In this document: piece after piece, positions 2,053 to 39,977 of the stretch
Layout: the number at the start of each line of letters is the position of its first letter
Position numbering within the stretch: position 1 is the stretch's first letter
Assembly: GCA_030656555.1 (NCBI GenBank)
Contig: JAUSPN010000080.1
Coordinates: 1-57,119 of the forward strand
DNA: 57,119 nucleotides
Origin: Candidatus Desulfaltia sp.
GTDB lineage: Bacteria; Desulfobacterota; Desulfobacteria; Desulfobacterales; ETH-SRB1
Direction of reading: 5' to 3'
Program-made: the position numbers and the translations under genes
The notes under the pieces: generated by a model
The model's database searches: none
Told to the model about the DNA's origin: nothing
The model's input: only the letters and a program-made list of their open reading frames with translations

Positions 2053-3828
2053 TTACCCTGCCTTTATATAAAAGATACCTAAGAAAAAGAGGAATATAAT
2101 CGCTGCGCAGGCGCCAATACCGATCTGAATCCTGTAAGAGTTCTCATTATAAGGTCTATTTATAATATCTTGATACAACACCTTTTTCCCTTGAATTGAG
2201 TTTATAACCATTTCCAGAAAGACATACGGGTTTTTACTGATCTTTCCTACTGAGATCACTTCGCTTGAAAGCGAGCCCTGCACACCTGATCTGATTCCAT
2301 TCAACAGACGATTGCAAAACCATAGACACCCTCTGCCGAACATCCTGTAAAACCAATCTGTATCAAGACTAACCGTGGCCTCACCGCCTAACTTATCGAT
2401 GTAAATCCAGAATGCGGCTAGAGTAAGCAGTAGTAATTGTATCATCCCCACAACATGACTTGCGGCATAAGGATGATAATGCACCGGATACGGCAAAATA
2501 TCATAGAGTACTTTTGGGTAAACGCCGGTAAATATACACAAGAAAGCGGCAATCCCCATTGCCAGTAACATGTTGAATGGAGGCTCTTTTACATCCTCTA
2601 TTTCGTCCTCATCGCCCTTCTTCAGGCCAAACCATACGCCCCACGGGAGTTTTAATCCGGTGTGCAGGAATGTACCGATGGATGCAAGATGAAGCATCAA
2701 CTCAATCGAAGGCCTCTGGAGAAGTCCTGCTGCCGCGCCGATCATTGTCTTGCTCACAAATCCGTTAAAAAGCGGAACTGCGGAAATGGAAAAGGCGCCG
2801 ACCATATAAAGAGCGAGCGTGATCGGCATCTTTTTGTATAAGTCTCTCCCCTGCAGGTCCGTCATTTTTTCCCTGCCGGTTACATGTATCACCGCCCCCA
2901 TCCCCATAAAAAGCACGGATTTGTAAAGAATATGACAAAAAGCATGGGCGCTGGCGCCATTGATCGCCATTTCGCTCCCAAGCCCGACACCGCAGACCAT
3001 ATACCCGACCTGGCTGATAATATGATAAGCAAGAAGCCGGCGAATGTCGTTTTCGAGCACGGCGTAAACGACCCCGTAAAGGGCCATTATCGCCCCTAAC
3101 CAGACCAGAAGTTCGACACCTGGAAAAGACCTCAGCAAGACGTATACAGCGCTTTTCGTAGTAAACGCCGTCATAAATACCGCGCCGGTAATAGTTGCTG
3201 CAGGATAAGCATCTGACAGCCATGCGTGAAGAGGAGGCACGGCTGCATTAAGTATGAATCCAAACAGAATAAATTTGGCAGCAACGGTTCCAAAGTCAAA
3301 CAGCTCGAATGCAATCGACCCAGTGGTTACCACATGAATGATAATTCCTGCCAATAACATACATCCACCAAAAAGATGTACTAAGACATATCGGAATCCT
3401 GCATCGAGCGAAGCCTTTGTTTTTCGGTACCAGACCAGGAATACCGAAGCAATAGCCATAATTTCCCAAAAAACAAAGAGAGTGAACAGATCTCCGGCAA
3501 ATACCACGCCGAGAGTACTTCCCACATAGAATAATGCAGCCACATGTTGTCCGTATTCCTTTATATGAATGGCATAAACCATTCCTATAAAGGACATGAT
3601 TACGAAAACATACGCAAAAACCATGCTGAGCTTGTCCACACGGCCCAGGATAAGTTCGTAATCCAGAAACTGGTATGTCCAATAGACACCGTGTGGCATG
3701 TTTACAAGATTCCAGAAAGCTATGGCCGGAATCAACAGCACAAGGGCTTGCTTTAATATTCTTATCCGGATCAGGGGGATCAAAAGCGCCCCTATAATGT
3801 AAATAAATGCGGGGGGGATATTAATCAT
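2053..3828 (-). CDS. Mrp-type Na+/H+ antiporter subunit D homolog (third copy, long)
   Basis: A 591-residue polytopic protein of the proton-conducting transporter family (MrpD/NuoM/NuoN-like). Family marks are the FVFWEIMAIASVFLVWY helix with its membrane Glu, PLHAWLSDAYPAAT with the following AFTTKSAVYVLLR lysine helix, and HILYKSVLFMGMGAV. It is longer than the other two D copies in the operon, with about 100 extra C-terminal residues ending in one more transmembrane helix. The start overlaps the small upstream gene by 8 bp, so the two are probably translationally coupled. It is the last gene of the operon. A seven-base G run (3811-3817 on the + strand) lies within the first codons. The role is ion translocation in an Mrp/MBH-type membrane complex. 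Which ion is moved is not visible. Confidence 0.88.
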   Translation of the reverse strand: MINIPPAFIYIIGALLIPLIRIRILKQALVLLIPAIAFWNLVNMPHGVYWTYQFLDYELILGRVDKLSMVFAYVFVIMSFIGMVYAIHIKEYGQHVAALFYVGSTLGVVFAGDLFTLFVFWEIMAIASVFLVWYRKTKASLDAGFRYVLVHLFGGCMLLAGIIIHVVTTGSIAFELFDFGTVAAKFILFGFILNAAVPPLHAWLSDAYPAATITGAVFMTAFTTKSAVYVLLRSFPGVELLVWLGAIMALYGVVYAVLENDIRRLLAYHIISQVGYMVCGVGLGSEMAINGASAHAFCHILYKSVLFMGMGAVIHVTGREKMTDLQGRDLYKKMPITLALYMVGAFSISAVPLFNGFVSKTMIGAAAGLLQRPSIELMLHLASIGTFLHTGLKLPWGVWFGLKKGDEDEIEDVKEPPFNMLLAMGIAAFLCIFTGVYPKVLYDILPYPVHYHPYAASHVVGMIQLLLLTLAAFWIYIDKLGGEATVSLDTDWFYRMFGRGCLWFCNRLLNGIRSGVQGSLSSEVISVGKISKNPYVFLEMVINSIQGKKVLYQDIINRPYNENSYRIQIGIGACAAIIFLFFLGIFYIKAG

Positions 3829-4033
3829 AATAATCCTCTTTCTTCATGAGCCAGGCATGGCCCAACCATTTGGATACAAGCACAATCACAATACATCCGA
3901 TAAATCCGTACACAACGTCAAAAACCGGTATCTTTTGCCACCAGAAATGAGGGTGCTTGTTCGGGAATACAAATCCCAGGATGCACACTACCGCGATACT
4001 TATGTAAAGAATACCCTTTAATTTTTTTACCAT
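3821..4033 (-). CDS. Small two-helix membrane protein of the Mrp operon
   Basis: A 70-residue protein with two predicted transmembrane segments (ILYISIAVVCILGFVF and VVYGFIGCIVIVLVSKWLG) and a charged C-terminal end, MKKEDYYD. It starts 1 bp after the preceding D-type subunit and overlaps the following one by 8 bp, so it is certainly part of the operon. I do not recognise a named family. Small membrane subunits of this kind sit between D-type subunits in MBH/Mrp-like clusters and may act as an accessory subunit of the complex. Confidence 0.75.
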   Translation of the reverse strand: MVKKLKGILYISIAVVCILGFVFPNKHPHFWWQKIPVFDVVYGFIGCIVIVLVSKWLGHAWLMKKEDYYD

Positions 4034-4034
4034 C

Positions 4035-5531
4035 CTATCCTGCTCCTAATATGTTTTGTACGGCCAGAGATGCTATGCTGAAAAAGCTAACAAACGCATC
4101 AGGCGCTATTCCAAAGATAATTGACAACAAAGCTGTAATGGTAATAGGTATCACCATTAACATTGGGGCCTCGTCAAAATGCGGGACAATACCAGCCGGC
4201 AGCTTTTTGAAAAAGGAATTGTAAATAATAGGGAAGAAAAAGGCCGCATCAAGCATGGCGCTGGTTAAAAACACAAACAGAAAGACAATCTGCTTTGCTT
4301 CAAGAGCGCCAAGGCATAAAAACCATTTGCTTATAAATCCGTTAATGGGCGGAAGACCCGAAAGCCCCAATGCCCCAATAGCAAAGGCGCCCATGGTCAT
4401 TGGCATCTGTCTGCCCACTCCATCAAGTTGGCTAACATATTCCTTATGTGTTTTTACATATATAGCCCCTGCGCAAAAAAACAGGGTGATCTTCATAAAG
4501 GCATGATTTGCAAGGTGAAGGATCCCGCCTGTCATGGAACTTTTGGTCAGAAGTATTGCTCCAAGAATAATTATTGCAAGGTTGTTAATGGTTGAAAAAG
4601 CAAGTCTCCTTTTCAGATGATCCTGGCCTAATGCCAGTAAACCGGCTCCCACCACTGTAATCGAAATAAAATATGCCAACAATATCCAGAGCCCTAAATC
4701 ATGAAGAAGATTTGGACCAAACACATACAGAATCACTCTTAAACAACCAAAAACACCGGCTTTCACAACAGCCACCGCATGCAGAAGGGCGCTTACGGGG
4801 GTAGGAGCGACCATAGCGGTAGGAAGCCATTCATGCATCGGCATGATACCGGCCTTAACACCAAAACCAAGTATAAACATTATAAACAGAAGTATCAGGA
4901 TACCGTTTGAACCACTGCCCTCTCCTATAAATCCGCCGGCTTTAAAATCAAGAGTGCCTGTCAGATAATAGGTCATTGCTATGGCAAACAGGAGAACGCA
5001 ACCTGCAACAAGCGTATATACCAGATATTTTCTTCCTCCAATGATCGCCTCAGGCGTCTCCTTGTGAGCCACTAAAGGATAAGTGGCAATGGTAAGTATT
5101 TCGTAAAAGACAAGAAAGGTAAGGAGATTGGCGGAAAACGCAATACCAATTGCTGATGAAAGACACATGGCAAAAGCGAAAAAATATCTTGTCTGCGCAT
5201 GTTCGTTAAGACTTCTGACATAACCTATGGAATAAAATGAGGTTGCAATCCAGAGAGAGGATGCAACCAGCCCGAACATCATTCCAAAAGCGTCCACTCT
5301 GAACTGTAAGCAAATCCCGGGATAAAAAGTAAATAGGGTATATTCGATCACTTTCCCCTGCAAAATCAAAGGGATCATGGAAAAGACGATCAAAAACTTT
5401 ATCAATGCAGCTATGATGGTCCACGACTCCCTGATATTCCTGTTCTTCTCTCCGGTAGCAAGAATCAAAAAAGCAGCAATCATTGACACCAGGACAGCCC
5501 AAAGGGGCCTTGATGAACATACAACATCCAT
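4035..5531 (-). CDS. mrpD: Mrp-type Na+/H+ antiporter subunit D homolog (second copy)
   Basis: A 498-residue proton-conducting transporter family protein with about 14 transmembrane helices. Visible signatures are FLVFYEILTIATYPLVAHK (membrane Glu helix), AGIMPMHEWLPTAMVAPTPV, and ALLHAVAVVKAGVFGCLRV with the channel lysine, followed by LKRRLAFSTINNLAIIILGA. This form with HAVAVVKAG is close to the D subunits of Mrp/MBH-like complexes and to NuoL/M. GGGAGA lies upstream of the chosen ATG. It follows another D-type gene (18 bp gap) and is followed by a small membrane gene. Confidence 0.9.
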   Translation of the reverse strand: MDVVCSSRPLWAVLVSMIAAFLILATGEKNRNIRESWTIIAALIKFLIVFSMIPLILQGKVIEYTLFTFYPGICLQFRVDAFGMMFGLVASSLWIATSFYSIGYVRSLNEHAQTRYFFAFAMCLSSAIGIAFSANLLTFLVFYEILTIATYPLVAHKETPEAIIGGRKYLVYTLVAGCVLLFAIAMTYYLTGTLDFKAGGFIGEGSGSNGILILLFIMFILGFGVKAGIMPMHEWLPTAMVAPTPVSALLHAVAVVKAGVFGCLRVILYVFGPNLLHDLGLWILLAYFISITVVGAGLLALGQDHLKRRLAFSTINNLAIIILGAILLTKSSMTGGILHLANHAFMKITLFFCAGAIYVKTHKEYVSQLDGVGRQMPMTMGAFAIGALGLSGLPPINGFISKWFLCLGALEAKQIVFLFVFLTSAMLDAAFFFPIIYNSFFKKLPAGIVPHFDEAPMLMVIPITITALLSIIFGIAPDAFVSFFSIASLAVQNILGAG

Positions 5532-5549
5532 TTACATTCTCCCAAACAA

Positions 5550-7046
5550 TTAAAAGCTCGCAGGAACTGCAAACTGAATTATAGATGAAATAATATTTCC
5601 GCTAAATATGCCGAGCAAAATAATCCCTGCTGCCATGATAACAATGGGAACAAGCATAGTAAGAGGGGCTTCGTCCCTTTGTGCCATATGTGTTTCCCCG
5701 CCATCATTGGCATACGCCGGCTCCATAGGTTTAAAATAAGCACATTCGATAACCCTGAAAAACAGAACCGCATTTATCAAACTGCTGCATAACAGCGCTG
5801 CCGCGAATGCCCACTGCCCGGCCTCGATAGTGCCCAGGATGAGATACCACTTGCTGAAAAAGCCACATGCAGGCGGTATGCCAACCATGGAAAGCGCTGT
5901 TATAGTAAAGGCACCCATAGTAAACGGCATTATTTTATTCAGATTATGCAACTTGTGTATATCACGCGTCCCAATTCTGTATGATATCGCGCCCACAATC
6001 AAAAACAGACATGCCATCATAAAAGCGTCGTTCAAGATATGAAGAATGGCCCCTGTAAGTCCTATTTTATTCGCCACACTCACACCCATTACAATATACC
6101 CTACTTCCGCAACCAGGATATAAACCAGCATTTTCTTAAGGTCTGTTTGTGCAAGCGCTTTGATTCCCCCAGCGAAAATAGCGATGAACGAGAGCCATCC
6201 CAATATGGTCATTACCGGCACCGTCTCCACGGAAAAACGAGGTTGAAATATTGTAAACATTATCCTGATCATCACATATGCGGCTACTTTGGTCATTAAG
6301 GGAGCAATAAGTGCGCTTACAGCGGACGGAGCGGTAGAATAAGCATCCGGCATCCATATGTGCAACGGGAAGATCGCCCCTTTAATCATTATGCCGACGG
6401 TAAAAAAAGCAAAAGCAACAAGGATAATTTTAGAATGATACATATTAGGCAAAATGACGGCCAGGTCTGCCATGTTAAGCGATCCGGTTGCTACGTAGAG
6501 ATACCCAACACCTAACAGGTAAAAGCATGCCCCGATAGTCCCCATAATAACATAATTGAAGGCGGCTATCGGCGCTCCTTCCTCACCGATTGCTATTAGG
6601 GCATAACAGGAAAGAGAGGAAATCTCCAAAAAAACAAAGAGATTGAATACATCTCCGGTAATCACAATCCCCAGGAGCCCGGTAATAAGAAGGAGAAAAA
6701 GCGTATAAAAGGGGACGGTTTTCTCCGGCAGTTCTTTCTCCACAGACTTTTTTGAATAAACGGCAACCATCAGACTGATAAAAGAAACAATGACCAGCAT
6801 AAATGCGCTGAGATAATCCAACGCATATTCTATACCCCATGGGGGTGCCCAGCCACCCAGACGATAGGAGAATTTGCCGGTCGTCATGACAGTATTTATT
6901 ATACCTAAAGAGGAGATGAAGGTTACAACAAGGACAGCGACAACCCATGGATAGCAAAGCTGTTTTTTCCACCATCCAATAAGCGGGATAAAGAAAGCGG
7001 CAATTAAAGGAACCACTATAATCAAAGCAGGAAATTGTTCTGCCAT
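5550..7046 (-). CDS. mrpD: Mrp-type Na+/H+ antiporter subunit D (first copy)
   Basis: A 498-residue polytopic antiporter subunit. It carries the MrpD marks LFVFLEISSLSCYALIAIG (Glu helix), GAIFPLHIWMPDAYSTAPSA, and ALIAPLMTKVAAYVMIRIMF (Lys helix), with LKKMLVYILVAEVGYIVMG in the second half. It is the best match of the three D copies to true MrpD and sits where mrpD normally does, 2 bp after mrpC. AGGAGT precedes the ATG. It should form part of the ion channel of the Mrp complex in the cytoplasmic membrane. Confidence 0.92.
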   Translation of the reverse strand: MAEQFPALIIVVPLIAAFFIPLIGWWKKQLCYPWVVAVLVVTFISSLGIINTVMTTGKFSYRLGGWAPPWGIEYALDYLSAFMLVIVSFISLMVAVYSKKSVEKELPEKTVPFYTLFLLLITGLLGIVITGDVFNLFVFLEISSLSCYALIAIGEEGAPIAAFNYVIMGTIGACFYLLGVGYLYVATGSLNMADLAVILPNMYHSKIILVAFAFFTVGIMIKGAIFPLHIWMPDAYSTAPSAVSALIAPLMTKVAAYVMIRIMFTIFQPRFSVETVPVMTILGWLSFIAIFAGGIKALAQTDLKKMLVYILVAEVGYIVMGVSVANKIGLTGAILHILNDAFMMACLFLIVGAISYRIGTRDIHKLHNLNKIMPFTMGAFTITALSMVGIPPACGFFSKWYLILGTIEAGQWAFAAALLCSSLINAVLFFRVIECAYFKPMEPAYANDGGETHMAQRDEAPLTMLVPIVIMAAGIILLGIFSGNIISSIIQFAVPASF

Positions 7047-7048
7047 AT

Positions 7049-7447
7049 TTAGACTCCTGTATCCTTTCTGATCTTCAGAATTTCATCTTCTTCCAGGGTG
7101 TTATATCTTCTGTAGATTAAAATAAGTATCGCAAGGGCGACACCGGTTGTAGCAATTGAAACTACAATTGCCGTAAGCATCAGCACGTGTGGCAATGGAT
7201 TCAAATAACCGGCGACATCAATTGCTTGATGGCCGTGCCCCTGAGCATGCCCCATTAATATGGGAACTGTTGCTCCTCCCTTTTTTACGCCCGTGGAAAT
7301 ATAAAAAAGAATTATTGCTGATTGGAATATATTCATCCCAATAAGTTTTTTGACGAGATTTTTTTTGCCCATCATTGCATACAGCCCGATCATCATCAGA
7401 ACCACGTATATCCAGAAATTGTATTTGCCAATTACGTAGTCGAGCAT
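7049..7447 (-). CDS. mrpC: Mrp antiporter subunit C (NuoK-like)
   Basis: A 132-residue membrane protein with three helices, like MrpC/MnhC and NuoK. IGLYAMMGKKNLVKKLIGMN, NIFQSAIILFYI and the family's PLPHVLMLTAIVVSIATTGV are all present. Between helices 2 and 3 there is a His/Gly-rich loop, GHAQGHGHQ, longer than in typical MrpC. The ATG has a GGAGGGG box upstream. The gene lies 1 bp after the MbhE-like gene and 2 bp before mrpD. Confidence 0.92.
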   Translation of the reverse strand: MLDYVIGKYNFWIYVVLMMIGLYAMMGKKNLVKKLIGMNIFQSAIILFYISTGVKKGGATVPILMGHAQGHGHQAIDVAGYLNPLPHVLMLTAIVVSIATTGVALAILILIYRRYNTLEEDEILKIRKDTGV

Positions 7448-7448
7448 T

Positions 7449-7733
7449 TTAATCCCCTCCTCCCTTGCGCTTCTTTCGCAACATCAGCACGCATGCAATG
7501 CCGGCCGTAAAAATCACAGTGGTCTCACCCAGCGTGTCATACCCTCTGTAATCCGCAAGTACGGCCGTCACCATATTGGGTGTTGCTGTTTTCTCTATGG
7601 CCTCCTGGATATACAGCGGTGAAACGTGCGAACTGGCCGGAGAATTGGGATCACCCCATTCGGGCATTTCTTCGATACCGTATATAAGCAGTGCGCCTGT
7701 CATAATGGCTGCGATTAAAGCAATAACTTTCAA
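7449..7733 (-). CDS. MrpA C-terminal/MbhE-like subunit
   Basis: A 94-residue membrane protein matching the MbhE-type module, which in canonical MrpA is fused at the C terminus. After a first helix it has the extracytoplasmic segment around PNMVTAVLADYRGYDTLGET, the family hallmark, then VIFTAGIACVLMLRKKRK as the second helix. The start is a TTG with a strong AAGGAGGT box. The TTG overlaps the TGA of the preceding gene (TTGA), so the pair is translationally coupled. Confidence 0.85.
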   Translation of the reverse strand: MKVIALIAAIMTGALLIYGIEEMPEWGDPNSPASSHVSPLYIQEAIEKTATPNMVTAVLADYRGYDTLGETTVIFTAGIACVLMLRKKRKGGGD

Positions 7734-7975
7734 TCTTTTGACCTCCTTTTTGTTTTACTAACCGCTGCGATAAACAATACTGTCCCAACTCCTGCGCCTA
7801 CGGAGGCCTCGGTAAAGGCAACATCCACCGCCCCCATTTCCGTCCAGAGAAGACACATAAAAAAGCTGTAAGCGCCAAGTATAATAACAGCGGCTAAAAG
7901 ATCCTTAATGGTAATAGCAGCGATCGCGCAGATAATTACAAAGATACAGAAAATAAGATCAAGTTGCCAGATCAT
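7730..7975 (-). CDS. DUF4040/MbhD-like subunit
   Basis: An 81-residue, three-helix membrane protein of the DUF4040/MbhD type, equivalent to another part of the MrpA tail. The family signature around TEMGAVDVAFTEASVGAGVG is clear. I place the start at 7975 because GGGAGGGAAA lies seven bases upstream, and the ATG overlaps the mrpG stop as ATGA. An in-frame ATG at 7996 would add seven residues and deeper overlap. Together with the MbhE-like gene this shows MrpA is split here. Confidence 0.87.
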   Translation of the reverse strand: MIWQLDLIFCIFVIICAIAAITIKDLLAAVIILGAYSFFMCLLWTEMGAVDVAFTEASVGAGVGTVLFIAAVSKTKRRSKD

Positions 7976-8295
7976 TTGTTTCCCTCCCTGGTCCATGGTT
8001 TAACACCACACCGAAAAGCGGCCCTGGAAATGGCATGAGTCGCCGTAGGATTAGCTAAAAAGACAAAAACAGCAATAACGACCAGCTTAATACTGTCTAA
8101 AATAGCTCCATGATGAAAGGCATGATATAATGCAAGACCGACAAGACATATAAGCACTGCAAGAGTGTCTCCTTTTCCGGTGGCATGCATCCTGGAATAA
8201 AAATCCGGGAAACGTATCAGGCCGATGGTGCCGGTAGTAAAAAAGAAACATCCTATCAAAATCAAAACAATGGATATTGTTTTAACAACTTCCAT
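7972..8295 (-). CDS. mrpG: Mrp antiporter subunit G
   Basis: A 107-residue three-helix membrane protein. The family signature GLIRFPDFYSRMHATGKGDT, followed by the LANPTATHAISRAA segment, identifies MrpG/MnhG. The ATG overlaps the mrpF stop (TGATG) and has GAGGTGA upstream. The stop overlaps the next gene's start. It is a small structural subunit of the Na+/H+ antiporter complex. Confidence 0.95.
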   Translation of the reverse strand: MEVVKTISIVLILIGCFFFTTGTIGLIRFPDFYSRMHATGKGDTLAVLICLVGLALYHAFHHGAILDSIKLVVIAVFVFLANPTATHAISRAAFRCGVKPWTREGNK

Positions 8296-8561
8296 CAGAT
8301 TTCACCTCTTCCTTCAAAATACTTTGCTGCCGCCAGGGTCCCGATAAAATTTAAAATAGCATATACCATGCTGATATCGATGAACATTTCTATCCTGTTG
8401 TAAATAAAACCCATGAGCACCAGAACTATTAATGTTTTTGTGCCGATTGCTCCAACACTTACAAGCCTGTCAATAATAGTCGGTCCGAATACTACCCGAT
8501 ACAAACAGACTAAAACAAGCAGGCAAAGAAAAATGCTGACACCTAAATAAAAATTTCCCAT
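8295..8561 (-). CDS. mrpF: Mrp antiporter subunit F
   Basis: An 88-residue three-helix membrane protein with the MrpF/MnhF signature RVVFGPTIIDRLVSVGAIGT followed by IDISMVYAILNFIGTLAAAKY. AGGAG precedes the ATG. It is coupled to mrpG by a TGATG overlap. The gene upstream in the operon is the degenerate sigma-54 regulator, which separates mrpF from mrpB and mrpE, an unusual arrangement. Confidence 0.94.
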   Translation of the reverse strand: MGNFYLGVSIFLCLLVLVCLYRVVFGPTIIDRLVSVGAIGTKTLIVLVLMGFIYNRIEMFIDISMVYAILNFIGTLAAAKYFEGRGEI

Positions 8562-8612: not shown

Positions 8613-9560
8613 TCAGCCAACCTGTTGTTTTGATGTTAAGTTATACTTTTTAACCTTTGCGTATAGTGTGCTGCGGCTCACATTGAGCTGTTTTGCGACC
8701 TGTAATTTGTTCCAGTTACATTCCTGTAAAATCTTCATCAGGAACCGTTTTTCATTTTCTTCAAAAGAGGTTATCGCATCTCGCCGCTCGGTTAAAACCT
8801 CATTTAAGATACGAGGTGGTAAAGACTCACGTTCAATTACATCCCCTTTTGTCAAGAGAAAAGCATGTTGAATGTTGTTTTCCAATTCCTTGACATTGCC
8901 GGGCCAGGAATAGTCCATTAACACCTGCATGGTATCAGGAGTCACGCCCTTAACATTTTTCTTTATTTCAATGTTTAGCTCTTTTATAAAGCATTGTATT
9001 AAAGGAGGTATATCTTCTTTTCTTTGCCTTAAAGAAGGCACATGAATATTGATTACATTCAGCATATAAGAAAACTCTTCGTTAAAAGTGCCCCCTTCGA
9101 CCTCTCTTCCCAGATCTGTATTAACGGCAGCAATTATTCTGACATCGGTCATTATCGACTTATTTCCGCCCAGTCTCTTAATTTTCCGGTTTTGCATAAA
9201 CTTTAGGAGCTTTATCTGAGTCATCGGAGAGATTTTGTCGATTTCAGATAGAACCACTGTTCCACCATCAGCCAATTCCAAACAGCCTTTCTTCTGATAT
9301 ACAGCCCCTTCAAATGCCGCGATTTCATGGCCAAAAAGCCCGCTCTCCACTATAAACTGCGGATAAGCCGAACAGTTATACACCTCAAAAGGTTTATCTT
9401 TTCTAGCGCTGTTCAAATGGATAGATCTTGCCACCAACGCCTTTTCCGTCCCTTCTTCTCCCCGGATCAGAACCGTAGTATCTGTGGGAGCCAGGTTCAA
9501 TATCATCTTGTAAACCTGCTGCATTTTTACGGACAGTTTGTTAATATCCTGAATTCTCAA
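8613..9560 (-). CDS. Degenerate sigma-54 activator (pseudo-EBP) with Fis-type DNA-binding domain
   Basis: A 315-residue protein made only of an AAA+ domain of the enhancer-binding type (about 5-245) and a C-terminal HTH_8/Fis domain (about 270-311). It has no receiver domain. The fold is clear, but nearly all working residues are changed. Walker A is GEEGTEKA (34-41, canonical GESGTGKE). The sigma-54 contact loop is AAFEGA (81-86, canonical GAFTGA). Walker B is VVLSEI (102-107, the Asp replaced by Ser105). The arginine-finger segment is FNEEFSYML (Asn160 and Met166 where the family has Arg). Sensor II reads GNVKELEN. It should therefore not hydrolyse ATP well or remodel sigma-54 polymerase. 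The DNA-binding domain is intact and very similar to that of the activator at 18147-20021. It starts with TTG (AAGGA box upstream) 16 bp after mrpB, inside the Mrp operon. Binding without activation, as repressor or competitor, is an inference. Confidence 0.85.
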   Translation of the reverse strand: MRIQDINKLSVKMQQVYKMILNLAPTDTTVLIRGEEGTEKALVARSIHLNSARKDKPFEVYNCSAYPQFIVESGLFGHEIAAFEGAVYQKKGCLELADGGTVVLSEIDKISPMTQIKLLKFMQNRKIKRLGGNKSIMTDVRIIAAVNTDLGREVEGGTFNEEFSYMLNVINIHVPSLRQRKEDIPPLIQCFIKELNIEIKKNVKGVTPDTMQVLMDYSWPGNVKELENNIQHAFLLTKGDVIERESLPPRILNEVLTERRDAITSFEENEKRFLMKILQECNWNKLQVAKQLNVSRSTLYAKVKKYNLTSKQQVG

Positions 9561-9576
9561 GTTTAATCCTTAAAGA

Positions 9577-10068
9577 TTAATCAGATTGATTCCGCTCTTT
9601 TGTTGAAGGGAGCCCCCCTGTAGATATGTCTAAAAAAATCGAGGTCATAACAGCCATGACAGCAATTCCTACGCCTGTCTCAATGCCAAGAATGCCGAGC
9701 GATCTTGCTTGCGCTATCCCTACGTGAAATATCTTGTCAAGCGCTCCATAATCCAAATAATTACCCCCGAGTATGATGCACAACAACCCTATTCCAGCAA
9801 ATATAAAGACTCCGAGACTGCACAAAATTGTATTTAATCTCTCGGTCATCCTCCGTAACGCGTTATCCAGCCCGAATGTAATGACCAGTAGAATAAAGCT
9901 TGCGCCTAAAATCACACCTCCCTGGAAACCTCCTCCAGGGCTGTAATGCCCATGCGCGATGACATATAGGGCATATATCTGAATAAACGGTATTAATAAC
10001 CGGGAAAGTGTCTTAACAATAACATCATCCGATTGTCTGGTCATGTCTATTGTACGTTTGATTATCAT
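9577..10068 (-). CDS. mrpB: Mrp antiporter subunit B
   Basis: A membrane protein of about 163 residues with the MrpB/MnhB signature YVIAHGHYSPGGGFQGGVIL and four helices. The ATG at 10068 with GAGG upstream is preferred. A TTG at 10083 would add five residues, and an ATG at 10044 lacks a ribosome binding site. The C-terminal helix contains GILGIETGVGIAVMAVMT. It lies 119 bp after mrpE and 16 bp before the degenerate regulator. Confidence 0.93.
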   Translation of the reverse strand: MIIKRTIDMTRQSDDVIVKTLSRLLIPFIQIYALYVIAHGHYSPGGGFQGGVILGASFILLVITFGLDNALRRMTERLNTILCSLGVFIFAGIGLLCIILGGNYLDYGALDKIFHVGIAQARSLGILGIETGVGIAVMAVMTSIFLDISTGGLPSTKERNQSD

Positions 10069-10097
10069 ATAGTCCGGCCTCAATTCTCAAGATTATA

Positions 10098-10187: not shown

Positions 10188-10901
10188 CTACTTTAATTCT
10201 ACAAAGATAGGCGCCATATCAAGAACATCCTGAACATACACATGATCGGCTTCCATGAATATATGAGCGATTCTATCCTCCATCTCGCCGGTCATAAGAT
10301 CTTCCGCAACCTTCTTGCTAACAGCGTGCACATAATATATGCCGTCTTTCACATCTACTGTGATAGTGCCCGGGGTAAGGGTTATCGAATTAGCAAGAGT
10401 AACCATCGAGATGTCACTTTCCAGTTTCGACTTAAACTCAATTATCTTCGGGTCAATGAGCCTTTTAGGCCACAGAGCCAGTCTTGCAACATGCAGATTG
10501 GACAGGACAATCTGATACATTAGCCATGGGACATAAACAATAAACCTCTTAACTATAACACGCATATCTCCAGCCCTTGGATTGGCAAAAAGGAGATCAT
10601 GCGATAAGTGTGACACCAAGCCGCAACACAGAACTCCTATGCTGATATGAAATAAATCATAGTGGCCTGATAAGAGCAGCCAGAAACCCAACAAAAGGAT
10701 AAAGGTCGATATAAATCTGATGACTTCGGCTTTTGTTTGTTTGGCTCCTTTAAATATTGCCTCTACTCTCTTCCGCTGCAGGATTTGAGCCTCTGAAGTC
10801 AGTCTGGCCGCCGTATCCAAAACCTGCCTGGCTCTATTTCTTGACTCCTCTAATATTCTAAAAGACTCATCAGCAGCCTGCACCAATATGGTTACTTCCA
10901 T
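10188..10901 (-). CDS. mrpE: Mrp antiporter subunit E with N-terminal cytoplasmic extension
   Basis: A 237-residue protein. Residues from about 62 on match MrpE: two N-terminal helices (FILLLGFWLLLSGHYDLFHI and beyond), then VYVPWLMYQIVLSNLHVARL, and the soluble domain with NSITLTPGTITVDVKDGIYYVHAV. Usual MrpE is about 160 residues. Here 60 extra residues, rich in Arg, Lys, Glu and Gln and probably an amphipathic helix or coiled coil, precede the first membrane helix. The extension looks genuine because the first ATG has a strong AAGGAG box six bases upstream. It is the first gene of the Mrp operon, about 250 bp downstream of uspA on the same strand. Confidence 0.9.
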   Translation of the reverse strand: MEVTILVQAADESFRILEESRNRARQVLDTAARLTSEAQILQRKRVEAIFKGAKQTKAEVIRFISTFILLLGFWLLLSGHYDLFHISIGVLCCGLVSHLSHDLLFANPRAGDMRVIVKRFIVYVPWLMYQIVLSNLHVARLALWPKRLIDPKIIEFKSKLESDISMVTLANSITLTPGTITVDVKDGIYYVHAVSKKVAEDLMTGEMEDRIAHIFMEADHVYVQDVLDMAPIFVELK

Positions 10902-10971
10902 ACACGACTCCTTTTATATACCTGCAAAAAAACAAATCCATCTTCCTGCTAATAACCAACTATAACTTAAG

Positions 10972-11124
10972 TTGAGCGATTAGCTGTTAGCCATTAGCGT
11001 TTAGCTCTAAAAAATCAGGGCATTACGTTAATTAGAAATAACACCCAATGAGTAAAAATTTGTAATAGTAAAACACCTTGGAATCATTAAACTAATAGCT
11101 AACCGCTAAAGGCTAATCGCTCAA
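10972..11124. repeat. Long-spaced inverted repeat of TTAGC-rich words
   Basis: A 13-bp perfect pair (10972-10984 with 11112-11124) continues on both sides into arms made of repeated TTAGC/GCTAA words, with about 80 bp of AT-rich DNA between the arms. It fills the gap between uspA (ending 11152) and mrpE (starting 10901), both on the minus strand. I see no clear T-run. The Mrp operon promoter must lie in or beside this stretch, but I could not find a convincing one. Confidence 0.55.
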
Positions 11125-11151: not shown

Positions 11152-11925
11152 TTATGAAATTATCAACGCTGGTATGGATGATCTTTCTGCAACACGAGAC
11201 GACGGCTTTCCCCTAAAAATGTCCTTGAGCTTTTGCACCCTCGTTGCATCCATGATTATCACTGTAGAATCGTAATCTTGTGCGGCAAGCAAAATCTCAT
11301 CAGCGATATCTCCGGCATAGAGATGATATTCTGCTTCAATTCCAATATCCGTACACCTCTTGCGGGTTTCTATCATTTTTTCCTTGAGCTGCCGCAAATC
11401 ACGCACAGTCAACTTTTCATATATTACAGTAACAATATCCAGTTCGCTAATTAACTCTTTAAGGCCGATAACATACTGCAAGGCATTCTCAGATGCATCA
11501 GGCCAATCAGAAACCAACAAAACACGCTCAAACATTCCTTTTGAACTAAAATTCAATCCTTTTTCGTCCTTATCGACAATAAGAAGAGGAATATTGGTGG
11601 ACTTAATAATATCATTTAAGATTGAACCACCAAATATTCTTCGATTCTCTTTTTTATTAAAATGAAGTACAACAAGCGATATACTGTTTTCATGGATTAT
11701 GTTTAAAACACTTGTGGAGAGGTTGCAGGGATCAATTTTAATGCTTACATGTATCCCTAAACCACTCAATCTCTTTTTCCATACCTCAAACAGGTCAAGA
11801 CTTGCGTTGTTTGAAAGGAGAACAATCTCTTGCAAACCAAGATTTTTGAGACCCGACAATCCATCCAGCACACGAAAGGTGGGTTCGCTTAAATTTGTAG
11901 CGTAAACAATTTTTTTTACGTCCAT
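11152..11925 (-). CDS. Tandem-domain universal stress protein (UspA family)
   Basis: A 257-residue cytoplasmic protein with two Usp domains, roughly 1-120 and 130-257. The first domain starts VKKIVYATNLSEPTFRVLDG, and the second starts FERVLLVSDWPDASENALQY. The ATP-binding G-2x-G-9x-G(S/T) motif is not intact in either half. The second half has VIIMDATRVQKLKDIFRG where ATP-binding Usps have a G-rich loop, so it is probably a non-ATP-binding type. AGGGAAG precedes the ATG. It shares layout with the Usp gene at 12519, transcribed divergently from the same 590-bp gap. It is likely stress-responsive, but its regulon is not visible. Confidence 0.88.
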   Translation of the reverse strand: MDVKKIVYATNLSEPTFRVLDGLSGLKNLGLQEIVLLSNNASLDLFEVWKKRLSGLGIHVSIKIDPCNLSTSVLNIIHENSISLVVLHFNKKENRRIFGGSILNDIIKSTNIPLLIVDKDEKGLNFSSKGMFERVLLVSDWPDASENALQYVIGLKELISELDIVTVIYEKLTVRDLRQLKEKMIETRKRCTDIGIEAEYHLYAGDIADEILLAAQDYDSTVIIMDATRVQKLKDIFRGKPSSRVAERSSIPALIIS

Positions 11926-12518
11926 AACTTCCCTATGTCATAGTTATACGAGGTCAATTCATAAATACATATAATGCCTGCTTTAAGAATCTATACCGAC
12001 CTTATCGATAGTTGATAAAATCGTAAAAAGTCACGCTCCAAGTTGTTGCGAGGAGTGTACCAACCCATGACACGTTTTCAGACTTTTTACGAGTTTATTA
12101 TCATTAAACATGATACAAAAATTAGGTTTGTTTGTTGATTTTGACAGTGTATTGCAATGTTCATGCCTTTTCGATTGCAACTCATATATAACTGTTTTAT
12201 TTAATGTTTTTGAATTCAAAAACAAAATACGATCAAAAGCCCTAACACAGTCTGTCCAACAACTGGACAAAAAGTAGCTATGTTTAGGAACATATTTATA
12301 TCTTTACATAATTTTGTGTACAAATAAAGGACACTTCTTGCCACAATATCATACAGTAAGATTTTATGTATTTCTTTTTTTCTGTTCCTGTTATTGTCTT
12401 TCATGCTGCCTGCTTGCCTATATAATACACATGTTCAGGCATACAATAAGAACTTGACAATCTAAACACTTTCTGATTATCTTCAAAAAATTTAAAAGTG
12501 TGTTCAGGAGGAAGTTTT
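11926..12518. other. Intergenic region between divergent usp genes
   Basis: A 593-bp AT-rich gap without a supported gene. It holds an inverted repeat (12014-12032 with 12081-12102) whose arms carry the TCGTAAAAAGTC word found at three other places in the window. It also has a GG-N10-GC pattern at 12265-12278 (only a partial sigma-54 match), and a TTGACA at 12454-12459 with a 15-bp spaced GATTAT that could serve the usp gene at 12519. Short open frames here have no ribosome binding site or recognisable product. Confidence 0.45.
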
Positions 12519-15522: not shown

Positions 15523-17610
15523 TCAATTCTCCAATGCCTGCCAATGAGCAGGAAATCTTAACTCAAAGGTTGTACCAACACCTTCTTTGCTCTTTACATC
15601 AAATGTCCCATCATAGTCGCGGACAATTCCATAACTAATGGACATGCCAAGCCCTGTACCTTTACCAACCTTCTTAGTGGTAAAAAACGGTTCAAATATC
15701 CTATCTCTGACGCTGTCAGAAATCCCCATACCGGTATCAGATATCATGACTACAACCTGGTTTTCCTTTAGCAATGACTTTATTGTTATAGATTTTTCAA
15801 CATCTGTGCCCATCTTTTCAACCTTTTCATCTATAGCATCAAGCGCATTGGTCACCAGGTTGATAAAAATCTGCTCCAGCCGGTTGTGTTCAGCCATTAT
15901 AGCGGGTAAGTTTTCTGTTAATTCAAGCTTAAGTTCTATCTGATGCAATCTTAGCTGCTGACCTAATACCTTAAATACGTCCCTGATAGGGCTATTAATA
16001 TCTACAGGCGACTTCACAGAAGGAGATATTCGGGAAAACTCCCGTAAATGATTAATAATTCCAGATGCCCTGTCCACATGGCCGCTTATTTCCTCAGACA
16101 CGATTTTTAATTCTTCAATATCAATCTTTTCGTCTTGTTTAATTACTTTTTGAATAAAATCGCTTCCAATCTTGATAACATTCAAAGGCTGATTCAATTC
16201 ATGGGCAATACCTGAGGCCATGGTGCCTATGGTGGTCATTTTACTGGCCTGTACAAGCTGGGCCTCCTTTTCCATGCTCTCCGTAATATCAATAGAGGCC
16301 ACGATTAATACCTCCATTCCCATATATTTTGCCGGACAAGCCGTAATATTTACATAGAATGGATGACCATTCTTGCGCACGTGCCTTTTTTTAGTAAAGA
16401 ATCCCCTTTGGCCAAAGGAAAGTTCTTGAAACCCGGCTACAACCTCTCCGGTTTGTTTATGCCCCAAACTAATAAAAGACATTTTTACTAATTCTTCCCT
16501 TGAATAACCATAGATATCCAAAGCCCTTTCATTGATATCCAGGATTTGGAAGTTATCCCGTTCTATAATAAAGATGGGATCAGGATTAGTATTAAACAAG
16601 AGTCTATATTTTTCCTCTGATGTCCTGAGATCTTTCTCATAAGATCTTAATTTATAAAGCATGTGTTGAAAGGAGTCCCGGAGTCTAATTATTTCATCCC
16701 CTTTATAACGTCGATAAACGGAACACTTCACACATTGATCTAATTTTTGCGGAAATTTTCCTGACGGCCCGCCAAAGCATAATGTGTCTAACACATACCA
16801 GCACGGGATAGTACCGTCTTTATAGGCCGGGCAATCTGTCTTGTCACAGTTCAATAACCTCCAGCACGCTATTGATCGCCTTGGGAGTTTCTCAAAATCA
16901 TAGTCATATCCTCCACGGCTAATCTCATCAGCGGCCTGAGTCAGCCGGACAATATGTCGAACAATATATCTGTTAAACCATAATATCAGGAAAAAACCGA
17001 GCATTGTTACTGATATAATGGCTCTAATTATATTCTGGTTTCGTACCGAGGTAAGTGTTTTCTGAATCGGCTCCCAGCTAAACCCAACCGACAACACTCC
17101 CAAAAGAGATTTTTCATCCCCGTGACACTTATAACAGGCCTTTTCATTATAAACAGGAATGGCATAACGCAATAGTTTGATATCCACATTATTATGATGG
17201 CGCTTTTCCAGCCCCTGTGCTAATTTGCCTGTGCTAAACGTTTCCAGGGTGATCTTAGAAACGGCCTTCCTGTCGATATCATAGGGGTCTACTCCATTAC
17301 GCCTGATGATACCAGTGTCATCACAAAGATGAACTGCCTTTATATCTTCCAGAGTGCCCAGCCTCTCCAATATGGCCTGAACCTGCTCCATTTCGCCATC
17401 CAGCATGGGATACTCTATGCTCTTCATAACAGTATCACTTATTTCCATGGCCATTTTTTTGTTCTCTTCAGCATGACGATTAACCTGGGTAATCACATCA
17501 AAATAGCTAAAGGTGCCCAGCACCGTAAGCAGGATTATACTCATGCCCAGCATTATCTTGATTCTTAAACTTCCTGACATGAATTCCTTTAAATTTATCC
17601 AGCTAAACAT
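15523..17610 (-). CDS. Membrane histidine kinase with heme-c motif and two-CW-like cysteine domain
   Basis: A 695-residue sensor kinase. TM1 is at 17-36. A periplasmic domain (37-192) contains CYKCH (159-163), a covalent heme-c site, in a layout like DUF3365/Tll0287 sensors. TM2 is at 194-213, followed by a HAMP-like segment. Next is a cysteine-rich insert (247-301) with CW at 249-250 and 270-271 and further cysteines at 255, 260, 278, 293 and 296, resembling the two-CW domain. A PAS domain follows (about 335-445), then phosphotransfer His470 in SGIAHELNQPLN, and an ATPase domain with NALDA, DTGMGI and GTGLGMSIS. The ATG at 17610 with AGAGGGA upstream is preferred over a TTG ten codons earlier. 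Heme plus cysteines suggests sensing of redox state or a small ligand. The following gene is a cytoplasmic kinase and the preceding one a tetraheme cytochrome. Confidence 0.9.
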   Translation of the reverse strand: MFSWINLKEFMSGSLRIKIMLGMSIILLTVLGTFSYFDVITQVNRHAEENKKMAMEISDTVMKSIEYPMLDGEMEQVQAILERLGTLEDIKAVHLCDDTGIIRRNGVDPYDIDRKAVSKITLETFSTGKLAQGLEKRHHNNVDIKLLRYAIPVYNEKACYKCHGDEKSLLGVLSVGFSWEPIQKTLTSVRNQNIIRAIISVTMLGFFLILWFNRYIVRHIVRLTQAADEISRGGYDYDFEKLPRRSIACWRLLNCDKTDCPAYKDGTIPCWYVLDTLCFGGPSGKFPQKLDQCVKCSVYRRYKGDEIIRLRDSFQHMLYKLRSYEKDLRTSEEKYRLLFNTNPDPIFIIERDNFQILDINERALDIYGYSREELVKMSFISLGHKQTGEVVAGFQELSFGQRGFFTKKRHVRKNGHPFYVNITACPAKYMGMEVLIVASIDITESMEKEAQLVQASKMTTIGTMASGIAHELNQPLNVIKIGSDFIQKVIKQDEKIDIEELKIVSEEISGHVDRASGIINHLREFSRISPSVKSPVDINSPIRDVFKVLGQQLRLHQIELKLELTENLPAIMAEHNRLEQIFINLVTNALDAIDEKVEKMGTDVEKSITIKSLLKENQVVVMISDTGMGISDSVRDRIFEPFFTTKKVGKGTGLGMSISYGIVRDYDGTFDVKSKEGVGTTFELRFPAHWQALEN

Positions 17611-17639
17611 AAAAAATTCCCTCTTAAACCTAAAAGGCA

Positions 17640-17668
17640 ACCGTTCACGGTTGTCGGTTCACAGTTCG
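17640..17668. repeat. Short GTTCACGG-type repeat
   Basis: Repeated words ACCGTTCACGGTTGTCGGTT and TTCACAGTTC lie between the cytochrome gene and the kinase. The same word family forms the inverted repeat at 49944-50081. Confidence 0.4.
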
Positions 17669-17692: not shown

Positions 17693-18136
17693 TTAGTACC
17701 CTGGATGCTTATGGCCGCTGTGACAGCCTGTACAAATATTCTTTGGGATACTCAATGTTTCTTGATGTTCGCGCTTGGTAGGAGCCTTGAGGTGCAGGCT
17801 TGCCGGACCATGACAGCTTTCACATTGTTTATTGATCATGCATGGAGTCTCTTGGACACTGGCAAACCCCCCGGGTTTTCCGTATCCCGTAGTATGACAG
17901 GGAAGACAGTTCGGGTCATTATCTTTTTTCCTCATCTGTATGATCCGGAAATTTTTTGAGTATTTCCAGGAATAATAGCTTGTCACGTGTTCGGGATGGC
18001 AGTCTTTACATTTTTCCATTCCAACATATACTGCCCCCGCTGTTTTTTTTTCAGCAATAGCTGCATTAGAAAGAAACAGTGCGCATAAAATTAATAAAAT
18101 GGATATTGTAATTAAAACAAAAATTTTGTCTTTCAT
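17693..18136 (-). CDS. Periplasmic tetraheme cytochrome c
   Basis: A 147-residue secreted protein. A signal peptide (MKDKIFVLITISILLILCAL onward, Ala-rich before the cut) is followed by four CXXCH heme sites: CKDCH, CLPCH, CESCH and CTGCH. The spacing and extra histidines resemble small cytochrome c554-type proteins. I place the start at 18136 with GAGGCGG upstream. A start at 18160 would overlap the preceding gene and spoil the signal peptide. It lies between a sigma-54 response regulator and a heme-containing kinase, so it could be an electron donor or redox partner for the sensor, or a target of the pathway. Its real substrate is not visible. Confidence 0.88.
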   Translation of the reverse strand: MKDKIFVLITISILLILCALFLSNAAIAEKKTAGAVYVGMEKCKDCHPEHVTSYYSWKYSKNFRIIQMRKKDNDPNCLPCHTTGYGKPGGFASVQETPCMINKQCESCHGPASLHLKAPTKREHQETLSIPKNICTGCHSGHKHPGY

Positions 18137-18146
18137 AATAACCGCC

Positions 18147-20021
18147 TCATTTATCCACATGATTAATATTATATTTTTTCAGCTTTGCATACAATGTGCT
18201 TCGGCTGATATTCAGCTTTTTTGCGACCTGTAATTTATTCCATTGATATTCTTCCAGCACTTTAGTTAGAAATCTTCTTTCATTTTCCTGAAAGGAGCTT
18301 ATCTTTTTTTCTTTATCCGCAGTAAAATATATATTATCGGGAAAATTTTGTTCGCTGATAAATCCATTCTTTGTTAGAATAAAAGAGTGTTCGATAATAT
18401 TCTCCAGTTCCCTAACATTGCCTGGCCAACTGTAATTCATCAACAATTTCGTAGCCTTGGAAGAAATCTCTTTAACTTTTTTATTCCCTTGCGAGTTCAG
18501 TTTTTCAATAAAATATTCAACCAGAAGAGATATATCATTTCGTCTAACCCTGAGAGGTGGAATATTTATTGGAATAACATTTAATCTGTAATATAAATCC
18601 TCACGAAAGTTTCCCTTTTCCACCTCTTTTTGTAAATCTTTATTAGTGGCTGCTATTATTCTGACATTCACTCCAATGGTTTCCTGCCCTCCCAATCTCT
18701 CAAACTTTTGGAACTGGAGAAATCTAAGGAGCTTAACCTGTGACATTAAAGGAATCTCGCCAATTTCATCCAGAAAAAGGGTCCCCTCGTTTGCCAGTTC
18801 AAATCGTCCGATCCTCTTATGTGTTGCGCCTGTAAAGGCTCCCTTCTCGTGGCCGAACAGTTCGCTTTCTAACAACGTATGAGGGTATGCAGAGCAATTT
18901 ACAACAACAAAACGCTTGTCTTTTCTATGGCTATGCAAATGAACCGCCCTTGCAATAAGCTCTTTTCCTGACCCGCTTTCACCTTGAATCAATACTGTTG
19001 CATCGGTAGGAGCTATATCTAAAATCAAATTATAAAGCTGACGCATCTTGTGATCTTTTCCGATAATGCCTCCAAAGCCTGAAAACATTTCTACCTTATC
19101 ATCTAATCCCTTCAGCTTTTCTTCGTTCAGCGCTATTCTTCTAATATCATAGGCAACCTGTGAAAGCATAAGATAAAAAAAGCGTAAATCATCTCCTGAA
19201 AAAACATTAGCCTCAGATGCAAGCAGAATCACTCCGCCGGCAATATCACCATTTCTATCTATTGGGACAACGGATAAAGACTTATAATTTTCAAAGTTTT
19301 TTAACCAGCCATAGCCCATAGCGCTTAGTTCGGCAATCTCCATTGGATAACGCATAGAATTAATCGCAGATATAATCTCTTCTTTATCCTCTGTTTGCAA
19401 GCATCTATAACCATTGACCTTAATGAAATCGTCTTTTGCTTCGTTAAAAACAAGGGGGATTGCCGTTTTAAACAAAAATATATTTTTGATCCTCTCGATG
19501 ATAAGATTAAAGGCATCTACAAGATATTTCTTTTCACTGAGGTTACATGTAATATCGCAAAGAGTTTTCATTCCTTTATGTGATTTTTCAAGCGCTGCTG
19601 TCTTTTCCTCTACCGCCTTTTCAAGATTAAATGTATAATGCTTAAGCGTTTCTTTGACCTTCAACTTTGCTTCAGCACGTTGAAGAGCCTTGGAAAGAGC
19701 ATCCGCATTAACAGGTTTTGTTATAAAATCAGAGGCTTCAAGCTGTATTGACTTGACAGCCTTTTCCATGTCTCCATGCCCGGTTATTATAATGACCTCT
19801 GCATCCGGATTTATTTCTTTGATATTTCTTAAAACATCTATACCATCCATCCCAGGCATTTTAATGTCTGTTAAAACAATCGAAGGGGCTTCCTGTTTAA
19901 ACAGTTCAATACCGTTGTGTCCATTATCGGCAGTTATAACATCATATCCCTCGTTCCTAAGAGACATGCTCAATAATTTTCTAATGCCTTCCTCATCATC
20001 TATAAGCAATAACTTCAACAC
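18147..20021 (-). CDS. Sigma-54-dependent response regulator (REC-GAF-AAA+-Fis)
   Basis: A 624-residue NtrC-family activator. Order: receiver (1-120, Asp52), linker helix, GAF-like domain (about 150-310), AAA+ domain (about 325-560), HTH_8/Fis domain (about 578-620). All working motifs are intact: [33 protein letters not shown] and GNVRELEN. It should activate sigma-54 promoters when phosphorylated, and the GAF domain may add a ligand input. The start is GTG with GGAGG six bases upstream. It heads an operon with a tetraheme cytochrome and two kinases, which are its likely partners. The AAA+ and DNA-binding parts closely match the degenerate regulator at 8613-9560. Confidence 0.93.
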
Positions 20022-20135
20022 ACCTATCCTCCCAATTAAGACACCGGGGACTCCAAAATTGTTTGATTAAATTTGCGAAACAGCATATTTTTATTTCAAA
20101 CAAAATATACCTTCTAAAATAGCTTGTTTGGCCTT

Positions 20136-20165
20136 TTAATAGGGTATTGTTTGACAAATTGTCAA
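20136..20165 (-). promoter_or_regulatory. Candidate promoter and palindromic operator of the signalling operon
   Basis: TTGACAAATTGTCAA (20151-20165) is a perfect palindrome with a one-base centre. On the minus strand it supplies TTGACA (20165-20160), with TATTAA 18 bp downstream (20141-20136), a fair sigma-70-type pair for the operon starting at 20021. A repressor binding the palindrome would cover the -35 box. This is a candidate only. Confidence 0.35.
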
Positions 20166-20386
20166 TAAAATTACCAGATACACATGTATTCGCAGGAAAC
20201 AAAGCCTGTGTCTAATCTAAACACAATCTTTTTCGTTGATGTTTTTTATTTTTTTGATAGTTTTTATTTGATGGATTCGGAGATAAAATATGCGTCAAAA
20301 AAAATGAGACGAATGCTATGGGTTCGTGCCTTCTTGGAGCGCATTTTTCAATTGTAAACGGGCTGCATAACGCTCTCTATGAGACA

Positions 20387-20419
20387 AAAAAGCTGAAATG
20401 CAATGCACTTCAGCTTTTT
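20387..20419 (+). terminator. Hairpin with T-run just upstream of ETF-QO gene
   Basis: A perfect 11-bp stem (20387-20397 with 20409-20419) and 11-nt loop ends in a TTTTT run, 25 bp before the ETF-QO start codon. In plus orientation it has the shape of an intrinsic terminator within the leader, so attenuation is possible. It could also end read-through from upstream. Confidence 0.5.
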
Positions 20420-20444
20420 GCAATTATAAAGGACCATAAAGAAA

Positions 20445-36089: not shown

Positions 36090-36854
36090 ATGAGTACATT
36101 AGATGATAAAGCTGAAGAGACTGTCGAGCAGGTAGAAACAACGAAATGCCCTGAAAAAGAACAGAAAAATAGAGCGTGTGGAATCATACTCATATTTTTT
36201 GTTATTGGATTAGTTGGAAGCCTTGCAGTGGGTTGGCTAATATTCCCCAAGCTTCTCTATTCCCAGAAAAAACAGCCTATCGATTTCAATCATGTTGTTC
36301 ATGTTGCTGCTGTTGAGGATGGATGTGAAAGTTGTCATTATTTTCGTGAAGATGGAAGCTTTTCCGGTGTGCCGAAACTCGCTCAGTGCGTTGGCTGTCA
36401 CGAAGAGGCTCAGGGAGAAAATCCTGAGGAGTTAAAGTTTGTCGAGGAACATGTGACAAAAGGAAATGAAGTGCCGTGGCTGGTCTATTCAAGGCAGCCT
36501 GATTGTGTATTCTTTTCCCATGCATCCCACATAAAGATGGGAAAGCTGGATTGTGTTGTATGTCACGGACATATCGGCGAATCAAAGCATTCAAGAGTTT
36601 ACGAAGAAAACAGGCTTACAGGTTACAGCCGTGATATTTGGGGGAAAAACCTCGCCGGGCTCAAGAAGGATACCTGGGACCGGATGAAAATGGATGATTG
36701 TGCTGAATGTCACGCAGAATTGAAGGCTAAGGGGGAAACCGTTACAACTCTTCCGTGGCCTATTAACTGGATGCCTCGACCTTATGAAAAACCGGCGAGC
36801 AGCCAGGTGAGAGTTAATATACAGAAAGATGCATGTTTTGTATGCCACAAATAG
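36090..36854 (+). CDS. qrcA: Menaquinone reductase multiheme cytochrome c subunit QrcA
   Basis: A 254-residue membrane-anchored cytochrome. One N-terminal helix (about 31-52) is followed by a periplasmic domain with five CXXCH sites: CESCH, CVGCH, CVVCH, CAECH and CFVCH, plus FSHASH-type ligand histidines. Known QrcA is described as hexaheme, so one heme site here is non-canonical or missing. QrcA takes electrons from the periplasmic type I cytochrome c3 pool (fed by hydrogenases and formate dehydrogenases) and gives them to QrcB/C. The gene starts an operon. A TTGACA at 35970-35975 lies upstream but without a good -10. ACGGAGTTT precedes the ATG. Confidence 0.93.
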   Translation: MSTLDDKAEETVEQVETTKCPEKEQKNRACGIILIFFVIGLVGSLAVGWLIFPKLLYSQKKQPIDFNHVVHVAAVEDGCESCHYFREDGSFSGVPKLAQCVGCHEEAQGENPEELKFVEEHVTKGNEVPWLVYSRQPDCVFFSHASHIKMGKLDCVVCHGHIGESKHSRVYEENRLTGYSRDIWGKNLAGLKKDTWDRMKMDDCAECHAELKAKGETVTTLPWPINWMPRPYEKPASSQVRVNIQKDACFVCHK

Positions 36855-36903
36855 GCTGATAACCTCATTAGTTTATTAGCAAGATTTTAAGGGGTAGAAT
36901 CTT

Positions 36904-39105: not shown

Positions 39106-39124
39106 ATCAAAGGATGGGGTTTTG

Positions 39125-39940: not shown

Positions 39941-39977
39941 AAAATTATAACCGCATATTTTTAGGAGCACATAACTT

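Follow-up and report, generated by a model that had tools for sequence, protein, structure and literature searches.

Activators of the NtrC family such as ZraR, NtrC1 and PspF have in common an AAA+ fold, a lid and a Fis-type helix-turn-helix (HTH). In TyrR, DhaR, HupR, VpsR and the NtrC proteins of Rhodobacter and Caulobacter the GAFTGA motif has been lost or altered (PMC3162934, PMC10274813); proteins of this TyrR/HupR type mostly have a regulatory domain and several act at sigma-70 promoters. Other enhancer-binding proteins (EBPs) function as pairs. The recognition helices of the Azotobacter paralogues VnfA1 and VnfA3 are similar; the two proteins have common targets and form hetero-oligomers, and the gene of one paralogue lies in a sigma-54 operon that the other partner activates (PMC9542535). 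HrpR/HrpS and FleQ/FleT are hetero-oligomeric pairs cited in the same article (PMC9542535), and in each pair both partners activate. Among sulfate reducers, Desulfovibrio DVU2106, the regulator of orp, is an EBP with palindromic sites that exerts negative feedback, the feedback consisting of one protein acting on its own sigma-70 promoter (PMC3897727).

The window analysed here, a stretch of 57,119 nucleotides from Candidatus Desulfaltia sp., encodes a relative of these activators, which we call pEBP, and its intact paralogue EBPpar. pEBP shares the AAA+ fold, the lid and the Fis-type HTH with EBPpar and the other NtrC-family activators but has neither a GAFTGA loop nor a sensory domain, and key residues of the ATPase are missing. 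It resembles the TyrR/HupR-type proteins in the loss of GAFTGA, and goes beyond them in that it has no sensory domain, in that Walker A, Walker B and arginine-finger residues have also been lost, and in that the promoter of its operon is predicted to be a sigma-54 promoter, probably controlled by the intact paralogue. The VnfA1/VnfA3 pair is a parallel in gene placement, but VnfA3 co-activates, unlike the role we propose for pEBP, and the lost catalytic motifs of pEBP do not agree with a pair in which both partners would be catalytically competent. The same holds for HrpR/HrpS and FleQ/FleT, beside which pEBP looks dead, and the single-protein loop of DVU2106 is unlike the pEBP scheme. Among the papers searched, none described a dead paralogue of an EBP that serves as a brake, or control of Mrp by sigma-54. 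pEBP differs from the known EBP relatives without GAFTGA in the breadth of the loss, the missing sensory domain, the place in an operon probably run by the intact sister and the constant co-occurrence of the two.

pEBP and the uspA-mrp operon

pEBP is a 315-residue protein encoded at 8613-9560 on the minus strand, the strand of the operon genes and pEBP motifs given in this and the next section. Its TTG start codon is preceded by a Shine-Dalgarno-like AAGGA (9567-9571). Pfam recognizes an AAA+ domain (residues 10-173; Sigma54_activat, PF00158, 1.4e-51), a lid (residues 178-258; AAA_lid_14, PF25601, 2e-25) and a Fis-type HTH (residues 266-306; HTH_8, 5.8e-12), the last within a DNA-binding domain that spans residues 264-308 (8637-8771). 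The Pfam search of pEBP gave no receiver domain, no GAF domain and nothing N-terminal of the AAA+ domain. A structure model built from 12 close sequences had a pLDDT of 59, whereas with a deeper alignment the AAA+ model was confident (pLDDT 87.9), its top match being ZraR; over sequence and fold together the closest proteins were ZraR (1ojl) and NtrC1.

The pEBP gene lies between mrpB (9577-10083), about 17 bp upstream, and mrpF (8295-8561), about 50 bp downstream. The first-pass annotation had reported this embedding and had quoted the open reading frame together with GEEGTEKA, AAFEGA, S105, N160, M166 and K224, and all of these proved correct; the strand, which it had left unstated, is minus for gene and operon alike. 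The predicted operon begins with uspA (11152-11925), which encodes a universal stress protein, and continues through mrpE (10188-10901), mrpB, pEBP, mrpF and mrpG (7972-8295) to mbhD-like (7730-7996) and mbhE-like (7449-7733) subunits that together occupy 7449-7996, the mrp and mbh genes to this point being assigned by Pfam. For mrpC and the mrpD/A-like genes that follow in 2053-7447 (7049-7447, 5550-7046, 4035-5531, 3821-4033 and 2053-3828), the names come from sequence and synteny. The operon has a mosaic end: in L055, L057 and L061 the mrpD-like genes downstream of mrpD1 are about 30% identical to those of the window. A palindromic, MITE-like element of about 150 bp lies between uspA and mrpE (10905-11120); it is not found at the equivalent place in a 95% identical relative (L053), and the genome has three more near-full-length copies. 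Elsewhere in the window, 36090-41216 encodes a multihaem cytochrome, a molybdopterin-like subunit, a ferredoxin and a membrane subunit, a set that by its translations alone resembles the Qrc quinone reductase complex.

Degenerate motifs and their conservation

pEBP was found in 13 genomes including that of the window, these being 11 of the 17 available for the window's family and two of a second family, and no further pEBP came up at E values up to 1e-115 among 389 sampled genomes of the order. The hosts are sulfate-reducing bacteria that partner methane- or ethane-oxidising archaea. They belong to the Eth-SRB1 family and to Seep-SRB1g: carriers include Eth-SRB1 (RPGP01000001), CR9063A and Meg22_02_Bin_90, three members of Seep-SRB1a within the GTDB family ETH-SRB1 (PMC10553843), as well as C00003106 (Seep-SRB1g). 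The window and the orthologues come mostly from metagenome assemblies.

Walker A of pEBP reads GEEGTEKA (residues 34-41; 9438-9461), with the change of Gly to Glu39 present in 13 of 13 genomes. GAFTGA is replaced by AAFEGA (residues 81-86; 9303-9320), Thr having become Glu or Asp in 12 genomes, and in G006 the loop is deleted. Asp105 of Walker B, here TVVLSEI (residues 101-107; 9240-9260), is Ser, Thr, Cys or Asn among the orthologues. The arginine-finger segment (9060-9086) is FNEEFSYML against FREDLYYRL, with N160 in all 13 genomes and M166 in 12, the second arginine finger being still there in G006. Sensor II (WPGNVKEL; 8883-8906) has Lys224 for Arg in 13/13. These positions are thus altered throughout, and it is in G006 alone that M166 and the GAFTGA loop depart from the pattern. 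The first-pass annotation had the protein stripped of every catalytic motif, which is right for most of them and overstated for the rest: Lys40 of Walker A and Glu106 of Walker B are invariant among the orthologues, and the switch residue Asn62 and the sensor I residue Asn147 are for the most part retained.

The losses are peculiar to pEBP. In the window's genome 17 other activators were matched, and every one of them has Walker A as GxxGxGK, Walker B as D-D/E, two arginine fingers and Arg in sensor II, with no more than mild variants of GAFTGA. Across 52 aligned proteins, loss of these catalytic residues was limited to the pEBP orthologues. Measured against a sigma-54 activator, pEBP therefore has the AAA+ domain, lid and DNA-binding domain and lacks GAFTGA, the Walker A and B residues, the arginine fingers and sensor II. 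An unusual ATPase that still activates by relying on Lys40 and Glu106 would account for the invariance of these two residues, but changes affect Walker A (Gly), Walker B (Asp), the arginine fingers, sensor II (Arg) and also the sigma-54 loop, and most GAFTGA mutants cannot activate (PMC7175178); we consider such an enzyme very improbable. ATP hydrolysis by pEBP has presumably been lost.

The same degeneration recurs at the same place in the Mrp operons of the 13 genomes, as the first-pass annotation would have it if the protein were maintained in this form. Of the sequence-level findings that it had named as refuting, neither was seen: the motifs are intact in none of the orthologues, and the frame is broken in none of the close relatives. 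The frame is open in 13/13 genomes, and the start codon is weak (TTG or GTG) in every one. Between unsaturated pairs, the only ones used, Nei-Gojobori dN/dS was 0.07-0.18 for the whole of pEBP and 0.03-0.16 for its AAA+ domain, similar to the 0.05-0.11 of the same domain in EBPpar, the active paralogue. Such low values imply that the AAA+ domain is still used, and a use in protein-protein contacts would fit. Given that E39, N160 and K224 are fixed, that the Walker B position varies but is never Asp, and that G006 has its own pattern, the dead state is old, with further parts lost separately in different lineages. A recent pseudogene, an activator copy that was inserted in the operon and is decaying, could explain why several catalytic residues are gone together, but it is to all intents ruled out by the 13 genomes with open frames, the fixed substitutions, the constant place and the dN/dS of 0.07-0.18. 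Hence, the proposal of selection for a pseudo-EBP with a preserved DNA-binding domain stands, and extends to the AAA+ domain, where dN/dS is also low: sequence comparison supports pEBP as a pseudo-activator kept by selection.

The intact paralogue and the region upstream of uspA

EBPpar (18147-20021, minus strand) is an intact response regulator of 624 residues with a receiver, a middle region, an AAA+ domain and a Fis HTH, and is the predicted activator of uspA-mrp. It is the closest paralogue of pEBP (54% identical), and in a tree of 51 sequences the pEBP and EBPpar clades were sisters with support of 100/98. The two are most alike in the core of the HTH (residues 283-306 of pEBP), where 21 of 24 residues are identical, whereas the AAA+ domains are 55% and the lids 43% identical; comparing pEBP with EBPpar within each genome, 17-21 of the 24 recognition-helix core residues agreed. 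We therefore think it probable that the two proteins read the same DNA sites. In our best explanation, which we favor by a small measure as a whole, pEBP is an old paralogue of EBPpar from which the sensory domains have gone, as have the parts required for ATP hydrolysis and for remodelling sigma-54 polymerase, but in which the AAA+ fold and the DNA-reading helix remain.

The genes also travel together. Thirteen genomes contain pEBP as well as EBPpar, and five relatives lack the pair. Mrp is of a separate type in four of those relatives (order E-F-G-mbhD-mbhE-B-C), and the fifth gave no MrpB match. G015 has EBPpar without pEBP, but its contig ends inside mrpE. Wherever contigs permit, the order is EBPpar, cytochrome, kinase, receiver-kinase, receiver, usp2 (reversed) and then uspA-mrpE-mrpB-pEBP-mrpF-mrpG-mbhD-mbhE-mrpC, with a cytochrome match missing from some loci. 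The histidine kinase (15523-17640, minus strand), which has a PAS domain and a CxxCH haem-type motif in its sensor, is the probable partner of EBPpar and is adjoined by a c554-like multihaem cytochrome (17693-18160). Given the haem-type sensor and the adjoining multihaem cytochrome, the signal sensed may be redox state or electron flow. In L063 (from G006) mrpE-mrpB-pEBP-mrpF is far more diverged (56-67%) than the adjoining EBPpar-kinase block (74-88%), as if replaced as a unit, and the pEBP-type Mrp genes of Seep-SRB1g (L056, L137) group, with weak support, within those of the Eth-SRB1 family (f1), which hints at transfer between partner lineages.

The first-pass annotation had directed attention to the DNA upstream of mrpE, where we found no sigma-54 promoter directly upstream of the gene; the conserved site lies instead upstream of uspA. 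This predicted sigma-54 promoter, GGCATGAACATTGC (12154-12167, minus strand), is directed into uspA-mrp and agrees with the -24/-12 spacing of sigma-54 promoters. The pattern GGCAY-N5-TTGC occurs once in the window; each of the 11 loci that span the region, the window's included, has the site or its equivalent at this position, and the four pEBP-less Mrp loci have no such site. In place of the consensus T before the GG of the -24 element there is A or G, and in L056 C; owing to the lack of this T, consensus scoring of the window alone missed the site, which was revealed by comparison across loci. The genome of the window encodes rpoN.

Farther upstream are two dyads that are candidate activator sites. 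The proximal one, TGTCCAACAACTGGACA (12253-12269), matches the dyad motif perfectly, as does no other site in the 2.73-Mb genome; the distal one, TGTACAAATAAAGGACA (12317-12333), lies 64 bp farther upstream. Across loci the consensus is TGTMCA-N5-TGKACA in two copies 63-67 bp apart, one starting about 102-105 bp and the other about 166-170 bp upstream of the -24 GG (119 and 186 in G006); the best candidate pEBP sites flank a conserved sigma-54-type promoter. The mismatch sum of the pair was 1 or 2 in five of 10 loci and 3 in two more; the proximal dyad was weak or undetected in L056, L059, L062 and L083. An equally good pair (mismatch sum ≤2) was present in 0.7% of random 240-bp segments, draws that may include the true site. 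Matches with one mismatch were not commoner in the genome than those of a reversed control (12 versus 24) and perfect matches also occur in two relatives that lack pEBP and EBPpar; the case for the dyads is hence one of position, pairing and conservation rather than of motif counts. The segment upstream of EBPpar (20022-20444) contained no dyad with one mismatch or fewer.

A wide sigma-54 regulon of pEBP and EBPpar found no support, as single dyads with one mismatch were no more frequent outside the locus than those of the reversed control. The target of the two proteins is probably the uspA-mrp operon alone. The same data bear on a role of the TyrR/HupR kind, in which pEBP would work with sigma-70 polymerase as a repressor or activator at promoters outside the EBPpar target. 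TyrR, DhaR, HupR and Caulobacter NtrC, all without GAFTGA, do act at sigma-70 promoters (PMC3162934, PMC10274813), and the Thr to Glu change in GAFTGA has been noted in relatives from genomes that lack sigma-54 (PMC3162934). We nevertheless judge this role unlikely, in that rpoN is encoded in the genome, the recognition helix of pEBP is nearly that of EBPpar and the only perfect dyad of the genome is at the sigma-54-type promoter of pEBP's own operon.

A proposed brake on uspA-mrp expression

The reading that we prefer, by a modest lean, is that pEBP is a catalytically dead paralogue encoded in an operon likely switched on by EBPpar, and that it binds the same sites and dampens activation. The histidine kinase would activate EBPpar, which at the dyads would turn on uspA-mrp via sigma-54. 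The operon would then produce pEBP, from its weak TTG or GTG start, and pEBP would sit on the same dyads and/or join EBPpar rings as a dead subunit, capping uspA-mrp expression. Since pEBP is predicted to be unable to give arginine fingers in trans or a sigma-54 loop, either occupation of the dyads or mixed rings should have this effect. Oligomers of pEBP with EBPpar are presumed in the second case, and in both the dampening sign is one that we infer.

That sign could be the opposite. As a non-hydrolysing architectural DNA-binding subunit in mixed rings or cooperative complexes with EBPpar, pEBP might be needed for full activation. The cooperating paralogues VnfA1/VnfA3 and HrpR/HrpS would be precedents (PMC9542535), purifying selection on the AAA+ domain of pEBP means that its surfaces matter, and two dyads could seat two complexes. 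Set against this, a subunit without trans arginine fingers and a sigma-54 loop should weaken mixed rings, and an autocatalytic loop would require a brake elsewhere. The subunits of VnfA1/VnfA3 and HrpR/HrpS, moreover, are not known to have lost their ATPase motifs. We therefore take co-activation to be a less probable role, though one with a real share of the probability, and our preference for dampening is restrained because its negative sign is inferred and because VnfA1/VnfA3 paralogues that share sites can co-activate.

Returning to dampening by a dead paralogue, the first-pass annotation had envisaged feedback of the antiporter operon on a sigma-54 regulon. Feedback on sigma-54 transcription gains circumstantial support from the conserved sigma-54-type promoter, the paired dyads and the intact sister nearby; the wide regulon does not. 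A more specific version, offered tentatively and with somewhat less conviction, is that of a dominant-negative pseudo-activator in its own target operon: EBPpar would switch on a dead copy of itself that poisons activator rings or blocks the enhancer, and the module would be common to Seep-SRB1a/Eth-SRB1 and Seep-SRB1g, two separate clades of bacteria that partner archaea.

If true, a sigma-54 enhancer system would have built a feedback brake from a killed activator copy placed in the operon that it controls, and pEBP would offer a natural way of testing how the surfaces of AAA+ subunits act when no ATP is hydrolysed. The sodium/proton antiporter would come under a self-limiting sigma-54 switch, and there would be a concrete regulatory handle on Mrp energy conservation in sulfate reducers, as yet uncultured, that draw electrons from archaea oxidising methane and ethane.
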